From the IMG/VR virus record IMGVR_UViG_3300022200_004063, positions 1 through 21,155 of that record: a stretch of DNA of 21,155 nt. One strand, given 5' to 3'. Positions 3 through 5,475 of the stretch are shown here, piece by piece. Source of the stretch: a virus. The notes beneath the pieces are model-generated. The model was not told where the DNA came from. It was given only the letters and a program-made list of their open reading frames with translations, and ran no database searches. Position numbers and translations under genes: made by a program. Numbering within the stretch: the first letter of the stretch is position 1; the number at the start of each line of letters is the position of its first letter.

Positions 3-104
3 ACCGTGGGAATAGACGCAGGTACAGGGCGCGGCAGCTACGCGGCAGCCGCGCCCGCTACACCAAAGGAATCTTCGTGGAAATCATGGCACGGCACATT
101 CTGA
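3..104 (+). CDS. C-terminal end of an unidentified upstream gene (partial)
   Basis: In the third frame from the left edge an open stretch of 33 codons ends at TGA 102-104. It has a small-residue and alanine/proline-rich run followed by a polar, aromatic end (TPKESSWKSWHGTF). This composition is typical of the flexible C-terminal tail of phage replication or recombination proteins. The competing frame is arginine-rich, as out-of-frame GC-rich DNA usually is. If real, the gene overlaps the start of the nuclease gene by 28 bases, which fits the tight packing of this block. Too little is visible to name a function. The alternative is that bases 1-76 belong to an N-terminal extension of the nuclease gene, whose frame is also open to the window edge. 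Confidence 0.35.
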   Translation, partial: TVGIDAGTGRGSYAAAAPATPKESSWKSWHGTF

Positions 105-913
105 CAGACATCGACGCTGCGGTGGTCGCGACCAGCGACACGTCGTTTCGGCATCACATGGGCGCGTCCGTCATCGGTGACGAGTGCCATCGTCGCGTGT
201 GGTACAGCTTTCGCTGGGTGCGCCGCCATCCGTACAGCGGTAGGATGCTACGCCTATTCCAGCGAGGCCACGAGGAAGAAGTCCGCTTCGTCGATTTCCT
301 GCGGCGCGCCGGCTGGAAAGTCACCGAGGTTGACCCGGCCACTGGTGAGCAGTTCCGGTTCACGGCTATCGAGGGGCATTTCGGCGGTTCGATGGACGGC
401 ATCGGCACGCCGCCAGCCGGGAAGCTCTACTCCGATCTCGGACCGCTGGTGCTGGAGTTCAAGACTGCGGCGAAGAAACCGTGGACGCGTGTTGCGAATG
501 ACGGTGTTGCGAAAGCGCAGCCTAAGCATTACGCGCAGATGCAACTCTATATGCGGGCGCGAGAGCTGGACAACGCGCTCTACCTGAGCGTATGCAAGGA
601 CAACGACGAGCTGTACGCCGAGATCGTGCCGTACCGGCCTGACGTGGCCGCCGGCTACCTCGCGCAGGCGCAGCTCCTGATCTCCTCCCAGGACGCGCCG
701 CCTGGGATTAGCAGCGATCCTACTTTCTGGAAATGCAAGTTCTGTGACTATCACGCGGTTTGCCACGGCGACGAAGCGCCGGCGCAGAACTGCCGCTCGT
801 GCAAGCACGCCGTGCCTGCGGAAGGCTCCGTGTGGCACTGTGAGCGCCACGACGTAGAGATCCCGCGTGACAGGCTTGCCGTAGCGCACCCGTGCTGGGA
901 GAGCCTCCTGTGA
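77..913 (+). CDS. Cas4/RecB-like PD-(D/E)XK nuclease with Cys cluster
   Basis: This 278-residue protein has the order of motifs of the Cas4/RecB exonuclease fold: a candidate motif I His65 (RGHEEE), Asp107 in GGSMDG, Glu127-x-Lys129 in LEFKT, and a QMQLY motif at 154-158. Cys37 together with Cys220, Cys223 and Cys229 matches the split four-cysteine iron-sulfur arrangement of Cas4/AddB-type nucleases. A second C-terminal set (Cys239, Cys242, Cys255, Cys273) could bind zinc. Such enzymes degrade or process DNA ends using divalent metal. GTG at 77 is preferred because AAAGGA lies at 65-70; ATG at 86 is an alternative. It overlaps the helicase gene, so the pair probably works together in recombination or end processing during replication. 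There is no CRISPR array or other cas gene here, so a CRISPR role is not indicated. Confidence 0.85.
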   Translation: MEIMARHILTDIDAAVVATSDTSFRHHMGASVIGDECHRRVWYSFRWVRRHPYSGRMLRLFQRGHEEEVRFVDFLRRAGWKVTEVDPATGEQFRFTAIEGHFGGSMDGIGTPPAGKLYSDLGPLVLEFKTAAKKPWTRVANDGVAKAQPKHYAQMQLYMRARELDNALYLSVCKDNDELYAEIVPYRPDVAAGYLAQAQLLISSQDAPPGISSDPTFWKCKFCDYHAVCHGDEAPAQNCRSCKHAVPAEGSVWHCERHDVEIPRDRLAVAHPCWESLL

Positions 914-2495: not shown

Positions 2496-4313
2496 ATGCG
2501 CGACGGATGTAGAGTAGTGTCGTGGTTCAGCGCGGGAGTCTCATCGGCTGTCGCGACCAAGCTAACGATTACAGATCTTGACCATATCATCTACACGCAT
2601 ATCGAAGACCATCACGAAGATACGCTGCGGTTCGTTGCCGACTGCGAAAAATGGTTTAAAAAGCCTGTCGAGATTATTCAGTCGGACAGATACTCCACGG
2701 TGGAGGAGACTCTTCGCGCTGTCCAGTATATCAACGGCCCTGCTGGAGCGCCGTGTACGCGGCTCCTTAAACGACGGGTGCGCAAAGAATGGGAGAACGC
2801 ACACGACGATCTACCATTGATGTATGTGTGGGGGCTGGACGCATCTGAGCAAGCGCGCGCCGAGCGCCTTGCTGAGGCCATGCCTGATCAGCAGCACATC
2901 TTTCCCTTGATCGAACGAGGAATCACCAAAGAGGCTGCACACCAAATGCTGAACGCTAGTGGAGTGCGGAGGCCCGCCATGTACGATCTAGGGTATCCAA
3001 ACAACAACTGTATCGGATGTGTCAAGGGCGGCATGGGGTACTGGAACAAGATCCGCCGAGACTTTCCAGAAGTATTTGAGAAACGCGCCGCACTCGAGCG
3101 CGAAATTGGCGCACGTTGTATGCGCCGATCATCGCTAGACGACCTCGATCCAGAGCGCGGTCGAGAAAGCCCGCCAATCGTCGAGGAATGCGGCGCGATG
3201 TGTGAAGTGATGGACCTGAACAAGACCGACAATCCACAAGTACCAGAATCTTCTAGGAGGCTTCAGATGGGGCGCAACAAGATCAATAAGCAAGCGAAGC
3301 AGCTCGACGCGGCGATTCGCCTAGTCGCCGGCAAGAAGAAGCGCGGAACGGTGGCCGTGTCCAGTGGCGGCGTGTTGTACTCGACCGGCCTTGACGCGGC
3401 GTCCCCTGCCGGGCTGCCCCTGCCCAAGGGGCTGTACGCAGCCGATGAGCTGCTTGCTGTCTTCCCCGCGTTCAAGTACGCAGAGAAGATCACTGTCGGC
3501 AGCACGCAAGACGCGGAAGGCGCGTGGAACGTTGAGCTATCGGACGGCGAGGGTACGAAGCTCGTGCTTGGGTGGCAGGACTGCGGAGATGTCAGTGCGG
3601 AAACACCGGACACGGGATGGGCGCTTTCTGCGCAGCATCTCAAGATGCTGAAGGCGGCAGTTTCGCTCGCGTCGAAGTTGGTGAAAGAGCAGCTTCGCGT
3701 CGTGCGGTTTGAGGAGCCTGGGGTCATGAGCTACCTCTCGCCCACCACGGTTGCCCAGTGGTACACGCCGAAGTGGCAGGGCCGTCCCACGTTTGAAGCC
3801 GACGTTGCCGACATCAAGCGCGCCATGGCGTATCGTGGCGCGAAACTTATCGCGATAGGAGCGTCCGACGGCAAGGTCAACTTCGCCTACGACGACGGCG
3901 CGTTCCTGCGGACAGCGCGGTACACCGGCAGCTACGACGCCCAGCAGATCTCCACCGTGTTTACTCTCGATGACGAAAAGCTGCCGATTGGCGAGGCGTC
4001 ACCTGCGCAGCAGCTCCTATCGATGGTGGCGAGTGGCGGTAACCCGTCGTGGACCGACGGTACGCGGTTCTTTGCCGACTACGGTGCCGAAGGTACTGCT
4101 ATGCCGATGGAAATTGGTGCTTGCAAATTCTATCCTGCTAGCATCAATCTACTTACGACGTGGGCTACGGCAGTTTCGTTCGGCAGCCCCTCCAGCTTCT
4201 GGTCGAATCGGCGGATTGGGTTCTTCGGCCCTGGGTATCGGGCGGTGACTTCCAGTGTCTTCACCGCTGAGGAGGCGCTGGAGAAGGGAATCATCGAGGA
4301 CTTGGACGGATGA
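2496..4313 (+). CDS. PAPS-reductase-like protein fused to unknown 348-aa domain
   Basis: A continuous 605-residue frame. Residues 1 to about 240 are an adenine-nucleotide alpha-hydrolase (PAPS reductase/ATP-pyrophosphatase) domain: PP-loop SAGVSS (12-17), GAPCTRLLK around Cys87, paired Cys172/Cys175 before GGMGYWNKIR, and a final Cys232/Cys236 typical of the phage branch of this family. These enzymes activate a substrate through ATP or bind PAPS-like nucleotides; the phage versions have no settled role. From Met258 (base 3267) on, the sequence resembles nothing I can name with confidence. It alternates amphipathic helices and beta-rich stretches. Met258 has its own AGGAGG at 3255-3260, so two proteins may be made from one frame. 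The start is ATG 2496 with AGGAGG at 2486-2491; GTG 2493 is possible. Confidence 0.8.
   Translation: MRDGCRVVSWFSAGVSSAVATKLTITDLDHIIYTHIEDHHEDTLRFVADCEKWFKKPVEIIQSDRYSTVEETLRAVQYINGPAGAPCTRLLKRRVRKEWENAHDDLPLMYVWGLDASEQARAERLAEAMPDQQHIFPLIERGITKEAAHQMLNASGVRRPAMYDLGYPNNNCIGCVKGGMGYWNKIRRDFPEVFEKRAALEREIGARCMRRSSLDDLDPERGRESPPIVEECGAMCEVMDLNKTDNPQVPESSRRLQMGRNKINKQAKQLDAAIRLVAGKKKRGTVAVSSGGVLYSTGLDAASPAGLPLPKGLYAADELLAVFPAFKYAEKITVGSTQDAEGAWNVELSDGEGTKLVLGWQDCGDVSAETPDTGWALSAQHLKMLKAAVSLASKLVKEQLRVVRFEEPGVMSYLSPTTVAQWYTPKWQGRPTFEADVADIKRAMAYRGAKLIAIGASDGKVNFAYDDGAFLRTARYTGSYDAQQISTVFTLDDEKLPIGEASPAQQLLSMVASGGNPSWTDGTRFFADYGAEGTAMPMEIGACKFYPASINLLTTWATAVSFGSPSSFWSNRRIGFFGPGYRAVTSSVFTAEEALEKGIIEDLDG
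3255..4313 (+). CDS. Probable separately translated C-terminal unit of the fused gene
   Basis: AGGAGG at 3255-3260 stands six bases before ATG 3267, in the same frame as the PAPS-reductase-like gene. The coding part from 3267 encodes 348 residues. It starts with a basic helix (MGRNKINKQAKQLDAAIRL), as a free N-terminus might. Four segments of helix followed by beta strands can be picked out: LDAAIRL onward, LKAAVSL onward, IKRAMAY onward and INLLTTW onward. This pattern, the length and the position near a DNA polymerase would fit a processivity-clamp-like fold, but that is inference only. The N-terminal neighbour reaches its usual family end (about residue 240) just before this start. That supports two formerly separate genes joined by loss of a stop. 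The feature start given here includes the Shine-Dalgarno. Confidence 0.5.
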   Translation, partial: RRLQMGRNKINKQAKQLDAAIRLVAGKKKRGTVAVSSGGVLYSTGLDAASPAGLPLPKGLYAADELLAVFPAFKYAEKITVGSTQDAEGAWNVELSDGEGTKLVLGWQDCGDVSAETPDTGWALSAQHLKMLKAAVSLASKLVKEQLRVVRFEEPGVMSYLSPTTVAQWYTPKWQGRPTFEADVADIKRAMAYRGAKLIAIGASDGKVNFAYDDGAFLRTARYTGSYDAQQISTVFTLDDEKLPIGEASPAQQLLSMVASGGNPSWTDGTRFFADYGAEGTAMPMEIGACKFYPASINLLTTWATAVSFGSPSSFWSNRRIGFFGPGYRAVTSSVFTAEEALEKGIIEDLDG

Positions 4314-4350
4314 AGGTTCGTAGCAATGACAACACAGGAGGCGAAGTTGC

Positions 4351-5184
4351 GTGAGCTACAACGACTCAATCGGCACACTGTTTCCCGAACCAATGCCGCC
4401 GCAGCTCCGGCAGGCTCCTCCTGCAACACCATGGGGGATCAACTTCGGAGGCGGTCTGAACTCGACTGCGCTCATCGTGGAAGCACACCAGCGGGGACTT
4501 CGTCCAGATTGGATCCTCTTCGCGGACACCGGATCGGAGCTTCCTGGCACGCTCGATCACGTAGCTGCCGTCGACGCGTGGTGTCGCGAGCGGGACTGGA
4601 CACCAGTCACGACGGTGCGCTGGGAGCGCGTGCGCGGTGACATCAAAGGTTTCGAACCGCTCCACGACCACTGCCTTCGTACGAACCATCTTCCGTCGAA
4701 GGCCTACGGGCTTGCCGGCTGTACTGTCAAGTGGAAGGTGCAGCCGATGGACAAGTGGCGAAAGGCTAATGGCTACCAGCGTGGAGCATTCGCAATCGGC
4801 TACGACTTCGGTGAAGAGAGGCGTGTACAATCCGCCATGCGCCGTACAGAGAGCGACGAGTTCATGCCGTGGTATCCATTGGTCGCGTGGGGAATTGATC
4901 GTGATAGATGCTCTGAAATTTGCCGGGATAGCGGCTTCGTCATCGGCAAGTCTAGCTGCTTTATGTGCCCGAATATGCGTAAGCCCGAATGGCGCGAGCT
5001 TCGCGACAGCCATCCCGAGTATTTTAAGCTCGCTGTTGAGATAGAAGAAAACGCAGCCAAGCACGGCAACTTCGGACGAGGCGGTATTGGGCTGTGCAAA
5101 GGTGGACTTCGAAACATCGACGACAACGATGAAAACGACACTGACGACTCTGGAATGTGCCATCTTGGAGGATGCTTCACATGA
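4351..5184 (+). CDS. Second PAPS-reductase/PP-loop ATPase-like protein
   Basis: A 277-residue protein of the adenine-nucleotide alpha-hydrolase fold, clearly different from the copy just upstream. The PP-loop is NFGGGLNSTALI (GGGLNS at 33-38), followed by ILFADTGSE (56-63), which is typical of PAPS reductases. Further marks are Cys108, Cys124 in GCTVKWKVQP, a CxxC pair at Cys203/Cys206 followed by Pro, and a C-terminal Cys270/Cys275. The cysteines could hold an iron-sulfur cluster or metal. Family members reduce PAPS, activate RNA or DNA bases with ATP, or (DndC) take part in DNA phosphorothioation; which chemistry applies here cannot be told. The start is GTG 4351 with AGGAGG at 4336-4341, nine bases upstream. 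The gene ends in an ATGA overlap with the next small gene. Its aspartate-rich tail (IDDNDENDTDD) is unusual. Confidence 0.82.
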   Translation: MSYNDSIGTLFPEPMPPQLRQAPPATPWGINFGGGLNSTALIVEAHQRGLRPDWILFADTGSELPGTLDHVAAVDAWCRERDWTPVTTVRWERVRGDIKGFEPLHDHCLRTNHLPSKAYGLAGCTVKWKVQPMDKWRKANGYQRGAFAIGYDFGEERRVQSAMRRTESDEFMPWYPLVAWGIDRDRCSEICRDSGFVIGKSSCFMCPNMRKPEWRELRDSHPEYFKLAVEIEENAAKHGNFGRGGIGLCKGGLRNIDDNDENDTDDSGMCHLGGCFT

Positions 5185-5333
5185 AAAATTGTCCGTTTTG
5201 CGGGGCGCATCTGAGAGAGGTCGATGGCGGCTACAAGCACCCAGCAGCGCTTTGCGTACTCACGTGCTTCTTCATCGAGGACGACGAGATCTATCTGTGG
5301 GAGCAGCGAAGCGAGGCACACAATGACCGCTAA
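5181..5333 (+). CDS. Lar-like zinc-ribbon small protein
   Basis: A 50-residue protein starting MKNCPFCG, with a second Cys pair (Cys25, Cys29) and ending near LWEQR. The CPFCG start, spaced second pair and W-x-x-R end resemble the Lar (restriction alleviation) zinc-ribbon family common in phages. Lar-type proteins modulate host type I restriction, but most homologues in phages are named by similarity only. The ATG overlaps the TGA of the upstream gene (ATGA), and GGAGG at 5167-5171 lies nine bases upstream. Its own end overlaps the next small gene by 11 bases, so all of these are likely translationally coupled. Confidence is high that it is a gene and moderate for the family. Confidence 0.7.
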   Translation: MKNCPFCGAHLREVDGGYKHPAALCVLTCFFIEDDEIYLWEQRSEAHNDR

Positions 5334-5475
5334 GAAGTTCGAAGTATGCCCGTTCTGCAAAACACGTGGGCAGCGCATCGTCGAGCTGACAGCGCGCTGC
5401 GAGCGAGCAGAGGCCGCGTTAGCGGCGCTGCTCAAGCTGCTGGGAGCCGCACTGCCGGAGGACGACGATGCTTAA
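5323..5475 (+). CDS. Small CPFC-knuckle protein with C-terminal helix
   Basis: A 50-residue protein beginning MTAKKFEVCPFCKTRG, with one CxxC pair (Cys9, Cys12), a third Cys26, and a leucine/alanine-rich helix (residues 27-43) that could form a coiled coil. It ends in the acidic EDDDA. I do not recognise a family. One CxxC alone would need a partner molecule to complete a zinc site, which together with the helix hints at a dimer. The start at ATG 5323 lies inside the end of the Lar-like gene. An upstream in-frame ATG at 5224 would give 83 residues but would overlap the Lar-like gene almost entirely and is less likely. It overlaps the next gene by 8 bases. Confidence 0.6.
   Translation: MTAKKFEVCPFCKTRGQRIVELTARCERAEAALAALLKLLGAALPEDDDA

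Follow-up and report, generated by a model that had tools for sequence, protein, structure and literature searches.

Two PP-loop enzymes in a phage replication block are probably sulfur-transfer enzymes that act independently

The window, which is the whole of IMG/VR record IMGVR_UViG_3300022200_004063, is a linear DNA of 21,155 bases. The record is probably a fragment of a tailed phage, so partner genes may lie elsewhere in that phage. The plus strand carries a replication block in the order Cas4-domain exonuclease, helicase, P1 ORF, P2 and family A DNA polymerase (Table 1), and the minus strand carries tail genes. Both P1 and P2 match PHROG 424, and the first-pass annotation was right to place two PAPS-reductase-like genes within a replication block. 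It also described them as side by side, which is not strictly so, as the enzyme domains lie about 1.1 kb apart with another stretch, D2, between them. Two overlapping 50-aa ORFs (5181-5333 and 5323-5475), each with a zinc-ribbon-like CPFC at the N-terminus, are found between P2 and the DNA polymerase; a Pfam search and a scan of the window genes gave no convincing family match for either. Among the window genes scanned there was neither a thioredoxin or sulfite-reductase gene nor a dnd or ssp partner, in agreement with the earlier observation that thioredoxin, sulfite reductase and dnd neighbours are missing. Pfam, PHROG and the gene scan also found no SspB/C or DndD/E operon in the window, a result that holds for the window only, the record possibly being a fragment.

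Table 1. Features of the replication block and conserved residues of the two enzymes (positions in the window)
Feature	Position	Strand	Support or remark
Cas4-domain exonuclease (Cas4-type)	77-913	+	replication block
Helicase, 5' neighbour of P1	892..2487	+	PHROG 16, E 1e-90
P1, PP-loop enzyme of the PptA family, N-terminal part of the 606-aa ORF	2496..3218	+	matches to PHROG 424, PptA and SspD
P1 PP-loop SAGVSS, residues 12-17	2529..2546	+	S12 and G14 in 155/158 relatives, others gaps
P1 Cys87 (APCTRLLKRR)	2754..2756	+	157/158 relatives; aligns with P2 Cys124
P1 CxxC, Cys172 and Cys175 (NNNCIGCVKGGMGYWNKIR)	3009..3020	+	157/158 and 155/158 relatives; aligns with P2 Cys203/206
P1 C-terminal pair, Cys232 and Cys236 (ECGAMCE)	3189..3203	+	152/158 and 151/158 relatives, remainder nearly all gaps
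AGGAGG, ribosome-binding-like, 6 bases 5' of ATG 3267	3255..3260	+	sequence
D2, 348-aa orphan continuing the P1 frame	3267..4313	+	only relative is contig L002
P2, the other PP-loop enzyme, from a sister family	4351..5184	+	PHROG 424, E 1e-31; SspD, E 2.5e-15
P2 PP-loop GGGLNS, residues 33-38	4447..4464	+	G33 58/60, G35 59/60, S38 57/60
P2 Cys124 (GCTVKWK)	4720..4722	+	60/60 relatives
P2 CxxC, Cys203 and Cys206 (SSCFMCP)	4957..4968	+	each 59/60 relatives
P2 C-terminal pair, Cys270 and Cys275	5158..5175	+	each 58/60 relatives
Family A DNA polymerase, 3' of P2	5585..7525	+	Pfam DNA_pol_A, E 1e-68

The first of the two ORFs encodes 606 aa (2493/2496-4313); P1 starts at the ATG at 2496 and the domain ends near 3218. 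P1 matches PHROG 424, "phosphoadenosine phosphosulfate reductase", with an E value of 5e-44 and the SspD profile with 3e-11, and it falls just below the Pfam PAPS_reduct cut-off (21.5 vs 22.5 bits). A total of 422 relatives were found, of which 80 were fetched; residue conservation was counted over 158 non-redundant relatives. The family is rare in cells, with 73 loci in 84,980 species genomes, and at 57 of these 73 the other flanking genes resemble those of viral loci. In Eubacterium callanderi FD, three contigs of the one genome (L183, L185 and L192) end within or beside a P1 gene, as expected for a repeated, probably prophage-borne copy.

There is no stop after the P1 domain: the frame continues for about 16 codons and then enters D2. 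In nearly all of the 80 fetched relatives a stop follows soon after the C-terminal cysteine pair, and one (L021) is about 85 residues longer. The same P1-D2 run-on is present in contig L002, which over 4195 bases differs solely by an in-frame 3-base indel that lies in D2. An assembly error is unlikely given this agreement with an in-frame difference, though the two records could have a common read source. D2 has no relatives in Pfam, PHROG, the PDB or phages, and among viral contigs only the near-identical L002; its single-sequence structure model gave no usable fold (pLDDT 36). The product may be the P1-D2 fusion, D2 alone, or both. A seeming P1-methyltransferase protein in L240 was rejected as evidence of fusion, its halves being joined through a masked run of Ns.

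Conservation in P2 was counted over 60 non-redundant relatives. Its AlphaFold model (pLDDT 86) comes closest in fold to yeast PAPS reductase (Z 12.4), followed by APS reductase (11.4) and then by NcsA (11.2), a [4Fe-4S] tRNA thiolase; NcsA and TtuA, both [4Fe-4S] PP-loop tRNA thiolases, score Z 10.5-11.2 against the model. Fold scores from this predicted structure do not distinguish a reductase from a thiolase. In Salmonella phage FSL SP-031 (Cornellvirus; L090, 3019-3873), a lone P2-family gene is located amid structural and lysis genes on the strand opposite to its neighbours, a moron-like arrangement.

The P1 and P2 family profiles align with each other at a profile-profile E value of 1.6e-17 and a probability of 98.9% (hhalign). 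In this alignment, Cys87 of P1 falls on Cys124 of P2 and the CxxC at 172/175 on that at 203/206. The C-terminal pairs, C232/C236 and C270/C275, lie outside the hhalign block and correspond by position only. Judged by these alignments, P1 and P2 are old sister families with one fold and one five-cysteine layout. The first-pass annotation gave the differing PP-loops, SAGVSS and GGGLNS, with correct motifs and coordinates, and its CxxC is indeed present in both enzymes. The "different cysteine patterns" it saw are, however, a single pattern, C87/C172/C175/C232/C236 in P1 being equivalent to C124/C203/C206/C270/C275 in P2.

The one protein of the P1 family with a solved structure is PptA, chain C of PDB entry 21fy, matched at E 1.5e-49 over residues 4-238 (2.5e-73 with the P1 family profile), and through this match P1 joins the PptA family as a new member. 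PptA is QGH73774.1 of Vibrio phage vB_VhaP_VH-5, a 250-aa protein encoded 3' of the phage RNA polymerase gene. It shares 39% identity with P1 over 92%, and the position of the loop and the five cysteines are common to both. PptA is free-standing in VH-5, with no P2 match listed there, whereas the P1 frame continues into D2 and P2 is present in the same phage. IscS is the general host cysteine desulfurase. A PDB search with E. coli IscS, which matched the 1p3w sequence over its whole length (866 bits), showed that the IscS sequence in 21fy is the same as that of 1p3w, and the chain counts of 21fy are consistent with two IscS plus two PptA. Phage RNA polymerase was rejected as the PptA partner, 21fy being absent among the RNA polymerase matches. 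Literature searches on PptA and phage-encoded thiolation found no publication describing 21fy. The composition of the entry indicates IscS binding for the VH-5 homologue only; the complex could also mean inhibition of IscS. P2 and its profile have no PDB match, and P2 is connected to PptA through its 98.9% relationship to the P1 profile.

All 75 sampled members of the two families (37/37 of P1 and 38/38 of P2) match the SspD profile, and 16 of the 38 from P2 have a second match, to BrxP of type 4 BREX. In the Ssp system of DNA phosphorothioation, SspD receives the sulfur, and it is bound by SspA, an IscS-like desulfurase (PMC7188994). In DndC, three cysteines belong to the cluster and a further dyad of cysteines is thought to receive sulfur (PMC10853773); the three-plus-two cysteine count of P1 and P2 would parallel this. 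P1 and P2 resemble SspD, DndC and BrxP in the PP-loop, the count of three cysteines plus a pair and the SspD profile match, and the P1 family also in a putative desulfurase partner. They differ in being phage-borne, in having no SspB/C, DndD/E or PglZ partners within the window, and in that the similarity of the window proteins is weak (E 1e-11 to 1e-15). With CysH they share the fold, and their cysteine order is like that of APS reductase, but the curated model match, the ECGIHxG tail and the reductase neighbours are missing. The NCBIfam models of CysH and APS reductase gave no match to P1 or P2 themselves, and only 1 to 3 of the 37 P1 relatives reach such curated models, weakly. The ECGIHxG tail with its catalytic Cys is absent from both domain ends, which read ECGAMCE in P1 and CHLGGCFT in P2. 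PHROG 424, a group of phage PAPS-reductase homologues (see PMC11437467), includes both P1 and P2, and although its name implies reduction, the evidence here favours thiolation. By their sequence relationships, P1 and P2 are probably sulfur-transfer (thiolation) enzymes and not enzymes of sulfate reduction. The thiolation proposed in the first-pass annotation thereby gains support, both from the SspD matches of the two families and from the presence of the P1 homologue PptA in a PDB entry with IscS.

Co-occurrence does not suggest that the two enzymes work together. P1 was found in none of 50 whole P2 records at E 1e-12, the records often being fragments, and P2 in none of 49 whole P1 records, where the few matches of about 30-35 bits equal the cross-hits on P1 itself; as positive controls, both profiles recover their own family. 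Fragmentary records weaken such absences, but the 49 and the 50 records agree. Furthermore, of 323 loci, 221 have P1 alone and 93 have P2 alone. The pair was found again, independently, only in a prophage of Acinetobacter guillouiae CIP 63.46 (L227, 5986-7595; L244 and L324 are the same element), in which adjacent P1- and P2-family genes overlap by 4 bases 3' of a dnaB-like helicase gene. Close Acinetobacter relatives carry a single gene, either one or the other (L245-L251, L325-L329). Different pairs of PAPS-reductase-like genes lie near each other in other phages (L095, L104, L166, L217 and Pseudoalteromonas phage KB12-38), and such genes accumulate occasionally in phages with no fixed partner. 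A conserved P1-P2 unit is rejected on the two null counts and the single-gene loci, and P1 and P2 probably act independently, not as two steps of one pathway. The "successive steps" put forward earlier are therefore not supported; the genomic comparison proposed at that time, in which independent carriage was to speak against the idea, finds that relatives carry the two genes independently. Two of the loci with neighbouring genes have arrangements of their own. In L104 (241-4898), a 5.9-kb phage contig, two P2-family paralogues flank a group of genes that includes a C5 cytosine methyltransferase; in L095 (6004-7918), a P2-family gene is followed after about 230 bases by a different PAPS-reductase-like gene and then by a terminase-like gene.

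DNA methyltransferases are enriched as immediate neighbours of both families, with 24/322 compared to 16/863 at a distance of at least six genes (pooled Fisher p 9e-6; p 0.0007 to 0.03 for the three sets singly), though part of this may stem from the clustering of early genes. Because methyltransferases adjoin these genes, and because the genes sit in replication regions, DNA is favoured over RNA as the target, by association only; the target is probably phage DNA.

These lines of evidence lead to a model that we hold to be somewhat probable: P1 and P2 would be independently acquired sulfur-transfer enzymes of the PAPS-reductase/PP-loop fold, like SspD and DndC and not like CysH, fed by IscS and acting in parallel. 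We infer the Fe-S ligation, the sulfur route, the use of ATP, the acceptor and the use of IscS by P2 as follows. The host cysteine desulfurase IscS would form a cysteine persulfide and dock with the enzyme, passing sulfur to the C-terminal cysteine pair (Cys232/236 in P1, Cys270/275 in P2) and also to a putative [4Fe-4S] cluster whose ligands would be three cysteines, Cys87 with Cys172/175 in P1 and Cys124 with Cys203/206 in P2. The PP-loop would adenylate the acceptor using ATP, and the activated oxygen would then be replaced by sulfur. The acceptor would most likely be phage DNA, either as a backbone phosphorothioate or at a base, modified around the time of replication, and the modification would protect the DNA from host nucleases. 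Each of the two enzymes would work at a target or site of its own, in parallel and not in series. That no DndD/E- or SspB/C-like partner is present in the window counts against this model and leaves nucleic-acid binding and selection unexplained. The lack of dnd partner genes there may be because host IscS is used, as in iscS-dndBCDE systems, in which IscS substitutes for DndA (PMC11662687).

Other readings were weighed against this model. P1 and P2 might be assimilatory PAPS/APS reductases, that is, auxiliary metabolic cysH genes that raise host cysteine synthesis during infection, as genes of this kind have been annotated in viral metagenomes (PMC8879888). The nearest folds of P2, the near miss of P1 at the Pfam cut-off and the order C, CxxC, C-terminal [DE]C, like that of APS reductase, agree with such a role; it is nevertheless unlikely, in view of the poor matches to CysH and APS reductase models, the missing ECGIHxG tail, the absence of thioredoxin and sulfite reductase genes close by, the SspD match of every sampled member, and the P1 homologue found in one PDB entry with a cysteine desulfurase. 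To our knowledge, cysteine desulfurase has no role in sulfate reduction. That the enzymes form a functional pair performing successive steps of one pathway is also improbable: both are in the window, the Acinetobacter pair is a second, independent adjacent one, and other phages hold two different genes of this type close together, but neither family was found in the whole records of the other, single-gene loci dominate, the Acinetobacter relatives have one gene each, and the second partner varies among phages.

A role on RNA deserves somewhat more weight, while still appearing rather doubtful. TtcA, NcsA and TtuA are tRNA thiolases, and P1 and P2 might likewise modify host or phage tRNA, for translation or for evading tRNA-cutting defences; tRNA thiolation is supplied by IscS, and the P2 model has NcsA and TtuA among its closest folds. 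No RNA-binding domain was seen in P1 or P2, however, the profiles matched are SspD and BrxP and not those of tRNA thiolases, and the genes lie in replication blocks adjoining DNA methyltransferases. Finally, the presence of PptA and IscS in one PDB entry would also fit sabotage, in which P1, by binding IscS, would redirect or shut off the host's sulfur supply for Fe-S clusters, tRNA or Dnd/Ssp modification and would make no nucleic-acid product of its own. This is very unlikely, since almost all members retain the PP-loop and the five cysteines, more than a decoy needs.

Sulfur transfer by parallel enzymes, as modelled above, may extend to a minimal phage thiolation system, a bolder idea that we regard as tentative and not the likely case. 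A single PP-loop protein taking sulfur from host IscS would modify phage DNA without DndD/E or SspB/C; in this phage two such enzymes would be stacked with different specificities, one joined to a D2 that guides it to DNA. If so, DNA modification would be the role of many genes now called viral "cysH auxiliary metabolic genes". PAPS-reductase-like genes of viromes have been reported as auxiliary metabolic genes that boost sulfur metabolism (e.g., PMC8879888). If the reading based on PptA and SspD holds, these would instead be sulfur-transfer enzymes that tap host IscS for the modification of nucleic acid, and sulfur would be predicted to occur in phage DNA or tRNA.
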